The notes under the pieces were generated by a model. That model saw nothing but the letters and a program-made list of their open reading frames with translations, did no database searches and had not been told where the DNA came from. From a virus: DNA of 31,145 nt. The position numbers and the translations under genes were made by a program. This document shows, one piece after another, positions 11,426-13,631 of the stretch; position 1 is the stretch's first letter, and the number at the start of each line of letters is the position of its first letter. The DNA is taken from positions 1-31,145 of IMG/VR virus record IMGVR_UViG_3300009605_000074; one strand, given 5' to 3'.

Positions 11426-11442
11426 TCGGGTATTGAACCCGA
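11426..11442 (+). repeat. Palindromic repeat copy (leader, before RNA module 1)
   Basis: TCGGGT-ATTGA-ACCCGA with perfect 6-bp arms. It lies one base before the 5' arm of RNA module 1; the same arrangement recurs 118 bases later. Confidence 0.85.
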
Positions 11443-11443
11443 G

Positions 11444-11530
11444 TAGCAACTGCGAGGGACGACAAGGAAGTTAGTAGTGTATGACTTGTCCGCCTACATG
11501 GTCGAAGCAGTTCCAACTACCCAGTTGCTA
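11444..11530 (+). ncRNA. Tandem structured RNA module, copy 1 (87 nt)
   Basis: The outer stem is TAGCAACTG (11444-11452) with CAGTTGCTA (11522-11530), 9 Watson-Crick pairs. The inner hairpin is GACAAG (11461-11466) with CTTGTC (11485-11490) and an 18-base loop. GTAGT in that loop is complementary to ACTAC just before the 3' outer arm, which would make a pseudoknot. Copy 2 keeps both stems with compensatory changes. Class unknown. Confidence 0.7.
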
Positions 11531-11542
11531 TCAATTAAGAGT

Positions 11543-11561
11543 CTCGGGTATTACACCCGAG
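11543..11561 (+). repeat. Palindromic repeat copy (leader, before RNA module 2)
   Basis: CTCGGGT-ATTAC-ACCCGAG with perfect 7-bp arms, immediately followed by the 5' arm of RNA module 2. Confidence 0.9.
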
Positions 11562-11648
11562 TAGTGACTGCGAAGTGACACCAAGGTAGTTAGTAGTCGA
11601 CAACTTGGTCGCCTGTATGGTTGAAGTTACCCGACTACCCAGTTACTA
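11562..11648 (+). ncRNA. Tandem structured RNA module, copy 2 (87 nt)
   Basis: The outer stem is TAGTGACTG (11562-11570) with CAGTTACTA (11640-11648). Relative to copy 1, one C-G pair became T-A and one A-T became a G-U. The inner hairpin is ACCAAG (11580-11585) with CTTGGT (11604-11609); two pairs changed on both sides. The 18-base loop keeps GNAGTTAGTAGT, and the 3' side keeps CGCCTNNATGGT and ACTACC. Equal length (87) and a 118-base period mark a duplication under structural constraint. Confidence 0.7.
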
Positions 11649-11666
11649 CTCGGGTATTACACCCGA
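11649..11666 (+). repeat. Palindromic repeat copy (leader, before first early gene)
   Basis: TCGGGT-ATTAC-ACCCGA, perfect arms, identical loop to the copy at 11543. It ends 26 bases before the first early start codon; a GAGGTG ribosome site lies between. Confidence 0.9.
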
Positions 11667-13389: not shown

Positions 13390-13500
13390 GAAGCTGAGAG
13401 GGGTAACCATTTCTCCGTGATACTTGACTGCTCTCCAGTCCTAGGGATGAGTGAAATAGTTTACATGTGCATATGTAGCCAGTTGGGTATCACCAGCTTC
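13390..13500 (+). ncRNA. Structured 5' RNA element upstream of a 27-residue membrane protein
   Basis: GAAGCTG (13390-13396) pairs with CAGCTTC (13494-13500), and GTGATAC (13417-13423) pairs with GTATCAC (13487-13493). The two 3' strands are contiguous, giving a stacked 14-bp helix with a 20-nt insertion on the 5' side. Inside are hairpins GACTG / CAGTC (13426-13440) and TACAT / ATGTA (13462-13477). The AGGAGG site follows one base after the helix. It matches no riboswitch or ribozyme consensus I know. Confidence 0.65.
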
Positions 13501-13515
13501 CAGGAGGATAACAGA

Positions 13516-13599
13516 ATGAACAACCCATACTTACCAATTATAGAAATAACTGTGTGTGTGGTATTATCACTACTTATTTACCTAATAGTTATGGCATAA
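13516..13599 (+). CDS. Single-span membrane microprotein (27 aa)
   Basis: MNNPYLPIIEITVCVVLSLL, then IYLIVMA: a short polar start and one hydrophobic span to the end. AGGAGG lies 8 bases upstream, far better than any site for the longer upstream frame, which would run through the RNA structure. It stands alone between a structured leader and the next promoter, so it seems to be individually controlled. Small phage membrane peptides can act in lysis, lysis inhibition or exclusion; nothing here decides. Confidence 0.65.
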   Translation: MNNPYLPIIEITVCVVLSLLIYLIVMA

Positions 13600-13603
13600 C
13601 AAT

Positions 13604-13631
13604 TTGACAATAAAAGATGTAGAGGTATACT
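13604..13631 (+). promoter_or_regulatory. Internal early promoter (sigma70-type)
   Basis: TTGACA (13604-13609), a 16-base spacer, TATACT (13626-13631), followed by ATTATT. It serves the gene starting at 13656, which has GAGGAG upstream. Confidence 0.75.

Follow-up and report, generated by a model that had tools for sequence, protein, structure and literature searches.

Element A, a candidate mobile RNA cassette in the early region of a marine podovirus-like phage genome

Introduction

The RNase III sites of the T7 early genes are simple irregular hairpins, fixed in place, while wcaG, manA and similar cis-RNA candidates are known from marine phages and metagenomes and are represented in Rfam. 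A further case is that of the promoter early stem-loop cassettes (PeSLs) of T4-type phages, composite promoter-terminator motifs to which the name "mobile regulatory cassettes" has been given (Arbiol et al. 2010; Comeau et al. 2014; both as cited in PMC4503421). Phages are well known to exchange accessory protein genes; the exchange of small folded RNAs as units in their own right is little documented, and a search of the open-access literature, which has few of the subscription journals, turned up no account of cassettes of this kind from pelagiphages or related podoviruses, an absence that is weak evidence.

The present analysis concerns a 111-nt folded unit, here called element A, in a window of 31,145 nt (the whole stretch of DNA analysed, IMGVR_UViG_3300009605_000074, positions 1 to 31,145). 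An original prediction, made from the letters of the window, had described it as a riboswitch-like or translation-control element for a 27-residue membrane microprotein encoded just downstream. The features discussed below are collected in Table 1.

Table 1. Coordinates of element A, its surroundings and the other cassettes (window coordinates unless another record is named)
Feature	Position	Strand	Remarks
Element A, folded RNA cassette, 111 nt	13390..13500	+	folding and sequence identity
Element A core, 108-nt block	13391-13498	+	identical across three contigs
P1, 5' strand	13390..13396	+	3' strand at 13494-13500; length 7 bp in the window and 5 bp in L001
P2 hairpin	13398..13415	+	p about 0.5; missing from the original prediction
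P3, 5' strand	13417..13430	+	14 bp with 13480-13493; 3' strand contiguous with that of P1
Inner hairpin inside P3	13431..13451	+	predicted, p about 0.7
Inner hairpin TTACATG/CATATGTAG	13461..13478	+	p up to 0.97
Continuous 3' strand, P3 + P1, 21 nt	13480..13500	+	
Shine-Dalgarno AGGAGG	13502..13507	+	
27-aa membrane microprotein MNNPYLPIIEITVCVVLSLLIYLIVMA	13516..13599	+	4 synonymous, 0 non-synonymous codon changes vs L009
Palindromic hairpin TCGGGTATTGAACCCGA	11426..11442	+	copy of dispersed repeat
Cassette C1, pseudoknotted RNA	11443..11530	+	
Palindromic hairpin between C1 and C2	11544..11560	+	
Cassette C2, paralogue of C1	11561..11649	+	absent from L010
Palindromic hairpin after C2	11650..11666	+	
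Palindrome TCGGGTANNACACCCGA	11101, 11426, 11544, 11650, 11878, 12842, 14953, 16579, 22733, 23737, 25634, others		
Cassette D	L029 6391-6460	-	
Cassette D	L012 7283-7345		
Cassette E	L029 6283-6475	-	
Cassette E	L013 5338-5425		
Cassette E	L141 (HTVC105P) MH598804.1:1903-1971		intergenic, unannotated

The fold of element A

The arms of the two 7-bp helices lie exactly where they had been predicted (13390-13396 plus 13417-13423, against 13487-13500), the composite 14-bp helix is perfect and the pair probabilities of both helices are 0.94-1.0; the unit indeed ends one base before AGGAGG. The two enclosed hairpins of the original prediction fared differently: that at 13462-13477 is supported (p 0.8-0.97), whereas the five pairs of that at 13426-13440 have an ensemble probability of about 0, since these bases pair instead in the second helix, lengthening it to 14 bp. 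P1 and P3 together make up a predicted 21-bp quasi-continuous helix, and the additional hairpin P2 gives, in the predicted fold, a three-way junction.

The fold is real, and its folding z-score is modest. Taken by itself, the 111-nt unit has a folding energy of -37.0 kcal/mol and z = -2.55 (3/200 shuffles; z = -2.3 and 7/300 shuffles in an independent run), a signal diluted to only z = -0.97 by the inclusion of the flanks; 4/1678 windows of the same length fold equally well or better, and the GC content is 47%, compared to 36% for the genome. On the opposite strand the folding energy is -28.1 kcal/mol, and element A probably acts as an RNA of the coding strand. Composites of two 7-bp helices with a shared 3' strand are expected by chance at about 2.3 places on each strand of a 31-kb sequence (the estimate comes from first-order Markov sequences with matching dinucleotide composition), so that the geometry of element A alone is not beyond chance and conservation carries the case; what does exceed chance, as judged from the contigs compared, is the identity of 108/108 nt with a phage otherwise saturated at synonymous sites. 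The core is identical in all copies and so offers no structural covariation within element A. A crossing helix (pseudoknot) of 4-5 bp in element A was no better than chance.

Rfam searches, at the gathering and at relaxed E thresholds, gave nothing credible for cassettes A, C, D and E and no match at all for element A even at E<=10, which bears out the original view that it fits no known riboswitch class; nor was any Rfam match obtained for a self-cleaving ribozyme core (hammerhead, HDV-like, twister, pistol, hatchet) in element A. No sigma-70-like promoter was found within 13390-13500, organism-specific promoters being outside the model, and no terminator-like site (U-tract stem-loop) on the + strand at element A. 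Two candidate motifs were rejected: TTGACTGCTCTCCAGTCCTAGG, which we take to resemble a synthetic promoter, has no -10, and CUGAGA and UAGGGA, read as TPP riboswitch boxes, fit neither in order nor in fold and gave no Rfam hit.

Copies of element A and their surroundings

Only three IMG/VR contigs hold element A, namely the window, L010 (IMGVR_3300017697_000099; also L002/L004/L007/L017) and L001 (IMGVR_3300025652_001621), and in all of them it is sense-oriented and intergenic. In L010 all 111/111 nt are identical, in the orthologous place; the identity of the window and L010 at this point runs for 122 nt and, because other runs as long are common to both, this conservation is no evidence by itself. 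In L001 the match covers 108/108 nt and goes no further than the ends of the closing helix, where two outer P1 pairs are changed, both being broken; these are the sole changes among the copies of element A. The helicases of the window and of L001 share 69% amino acid identity, with dS about 2.2 and 49% identity at third positions. Nowhere do the two contigs have a longer stretch of identity than these 108 nt; the runner-up, of 86 nt in the terminase gene, suggests recombination among these phages. Contig L013, about 90% identical in nucleotides to L001 on either side of element A, is without the 119-nt stretch holding it; this clean empty site indicates a presence/absence unit, cleanly gained or lost and relocated between lineages.

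Phage and plasmid collections contained no copy of element A; the cultured relatives of the window phage are remote. Scans of IMG/VR for diverged copies by exact 21-mer, 19-mer, helix-arm and loop patterns, which a copy below about 85% identity could escape, returned only the known copies and unrelated chance matches, among which a 19-mer match in Paucisalibacillus was discarded. The homologue search with a covariance model that had originally been proposed found none beyond the known copies across 43 loci and 25 complete viral records.

The gene downstream of element A differs in 3/3 copies: the microprotein in the window, a 55-aa ORF in L010, where the microprotein gene follows this ORF and has a separate Shine-Dalgarno sequence, and a 146-aa homologue of the window ORF 12503-12871 in L001, where element A lies directly after cassette B and no microprotein was found. 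The Shine-Dalgarno sequence is 1-2 nt away in the window and L010 and about 13 nt away in L001; its constant closeness may merely reflect the compactness of phage genomes. In L009 (a contig starting 40 nt before the gene) the microprotein is preceded by an unrelated sequence. By the standard that the original prediction had set itself, a dedicated microprotein leader is thereby refuted. A structured element just upstream of a ribosome-binding site has thus been retained from that prediction, and its dedication to the microprotein has not. Judging from the compared sequences, the moved position, the empty site and the gene intervening between element A and the microprotein, element A is a discrete, horizontally moving cassette and not the leader of the microprotein. 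The microprotein, whose codon changes relative to L009 are all synonymous and which for this reason is probably a real gene, is followed at 13604-13631, before the next gene, by a strong sigma-70-like promoter match (TTGACA-16-TATACT); a near-identical sequence recurs in L009 and L010.

Other folded cassettes in early intergenic slots

The early intergenic slots of this phage group carry other folded cassettes (B-E, each known from two to four sequences), most of them with clean empty sites in relatives; C, D and E behave similarly to element A. Cassette B, present in L011, L012, L001 and L013, shows compensatory changes in a hand alignment, its helices having been compared by hand and RNAalifold having misaligned the stems. 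Cassette C is found as a tandem of C1 and C2 before early genes (window 11443-11649) and as a single copy each in L010 and L025, and is absent from L028 at the site that it occupies in L025; four pairs show two-sided changes vs 0-1 in slid controls (three sequences only), one of these changes falling in a pseudoknot predicted to stack on the closing helix. The two sequences of cassette D (63 nt) are 92% identical, their cores being the same and their closing helices differing by a compensatory change (hand alignment); a possible pseudoknot (ACAGG/CCUGU with CGUGA/UCACG) can be drawn. Cassette E, of about 75-90 nt, is common to L013, L029/L030 and the cultured Pelagibacter phage HTVC105P, and its hairpin carries two compensatory changes (hand alignment); it resembles an H-type pseudoknot plus a hairpin with a conserved loop, UUCCUCAC/UCCCUCAC. 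Cassettes D and E are absent from that site in L028 and L025, and E from L001. A grouping of A with B, C and D through a common topology, a P1 enclosing a pseudoknot, is plausible for B and C, and was rejected for A, whose crossing helix is at chance level.

The palindrome TCGGGTANNACACCCGA, copies of which separate C1 and C2, occurs 23 times in the window, counting both strands and coding as well as non-coding DNA, vs 0.2 expected; it may be a binding site or a hairpin. Related phages have palindrome versions of their own, GCGGGANNNTCCCGC in L025/L028/L029 and GTCGGGACTATCCCGAC in L013. No palindromic hairpin precedes element A in the window.

Cultured pelagiphages extend the picture. The left flank of cassette E in HTVC105P is also found in HTVC021P and HTVC048P, but it is followed there by a different folded sequence of 77 nt, and HTVC121P has a third one, of 82 nt, in the same slot (fold z -2.3 for HTVC021P/048P and -2.5 for HTVC121P). 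The gene after the slot is the same in HTVC105P and HTVC021P (84% amino acid identity), with different cassettes before it; RNA and gene are therefore not paired with each other, and this speaks for independent modules rather than for a dedicated regulator. A second pelagiphage slot (L141 about 1992-2061, L142 714-780, L143 720-795) keeps the outer stem TGTCTAGT/ACTAGACG, the inner part being an unrelated sequence in each phage. The cassette RNAs match no Rfam family and are unannotated even in the cultured HTVC105P; HTVC021P, HTVC105P and HTVC121P, being isolates with differing slots, offer testable material.

Possible roles of element A

On balance, we lean towards regarding element A as a mobile, self-contained RNA module with a mode of action that is not gene-specific; for the cassettes as a group, a generic action, either on early mRNA or in trans, is the most likely. 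It sits in the early, co-directional part of what appears to be a marine podovirus-like phage genome and is probably transcribed, and active as RNA, within an early polycistronic mRNA, between one stop codon and the next Shine-Dalgarno sequence; there it would fold into the three-way junction with coaxial closing helices. Horizontal exchange would move it as a unit bounded by the closing helix, to land before whichever gene follows, as one of several unrelated folded cassettes (A-E) that would occupy such slots, often beside a palindromic hairpin, before a Shine-Dalgarno sequence. The mechanism we favour, with a confidence that falls somewhat short of even, is that of a generic cis module which would process, protect or insulate segments of the early mRNA, for example as a substrate for a double-stranded RNase or as a 5'-end stabiliser, so that any cassette could serve any gene.

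More tentatively still, marine podovirus-like phages, pelagiphages included, may maintain fixed intergenic slots in the early region and swap into them folded-RNA cassettes that are unrelated and evolve independently, constituting a mobile RNA accessory repertoire and perhaps a store of RNA-based counter-defence, with element A as a freshly exchanged member that moved unchanged between lineages. Were this so, the process would resemble the way in which small early protein genes are swapped; and if the slots do contain RNA modules that can replace one another, some of the RNAs that abundant marine phages carry have escaped notice.

The next most likely reading, though itself less likely than not, is that element A is a small RNA or decoy acting in trans, directed at a function of the host or at a rival phage, its placement near the Shine-Dalgarno sequence being incidental. 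Fast gain and loss, with identical copies in distant phages, has the look of an arms-race gene, and several unrelated folds share one slot in HTVC105P, HTVC021P and HTVC121P with no single downstream gene; yet there is no promoter-like site inside or just before element A and no terminator after it, it always lies in the sense orientation between genes, and no candidate target for it is known.

That element A is a riboswitch or a translation-control leader of the gene that follows seems improbable. A compact junction ending so close to the Shine-Dalgarno sequence in two of the contigs would suit such a role, but the constant association with a gene class expected of a riboswitch is contradicted by three copies with three downstream genes, the spacing is not kept in L001, Rfam offers no homologue of any ligand class, and pelagiphages place unrelated folds before the same gene; the sensing of a ligand by element A is unsupported.

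It is slightly more doubtful again that the unit is a non-autonomous DNA element (MITE-like or IS200/IS605-like), mobilised by a transposase in trans that recognises its inverted ends. These ends (GAAGCTG/CAGCTTC), the clean presence or absence and the identical copies are all compatible with this, but the inverted repeat is of only 5-7 bp, all copies have the same orientation relative to transcription, and no target-site duplication is visible at either location (none clear when L001 is compared with L013); moreover, the closing helices of C and D carry compensatory changes, a sign of selection on RNA structure and not on the sequence of the termini. Least credible is a small peptide (MSEIVYMCICSQLGITSF plus a flank-dependent tail): one frame is indeed open for 37 codons through the whole element in 3/3 copies, but such a length is unremarkable, the Shine-Dalgarno sequence is unconvincing, the tail varies with the flank and, all copies being identical, no codon test is possible.

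Comparison with known systems

Like wcaG and manA, element A would be a structured RNA in the presumed 5' leader of marine phage genes; it differs from them in having neither an Rfam match nor a constant gene association. With the T7 RNase III sites it shares a long imperfect duplex located between genes of an early polycistronic mRNA, represented here by the predicted quasi-continuous helix; in contrast to those sites it is a mobile three-way junction, and its cleavage is a proposal drawn from the predicted helix. The resemblance to PeSLs (as cited in PMC4503421) lies in the short intergenic early-region units, exchanged between related phages and tied to gene shuffling. Mobility between related phages is indeed observed for element A, whereas the early promoter and the terminator stem-loop that define PeSLs are missing, and for this reason it is not classed among them; it has a longer multi-helix fold, and cassettes A-E have folds unrelated to one another, some of them pseudoknotted.
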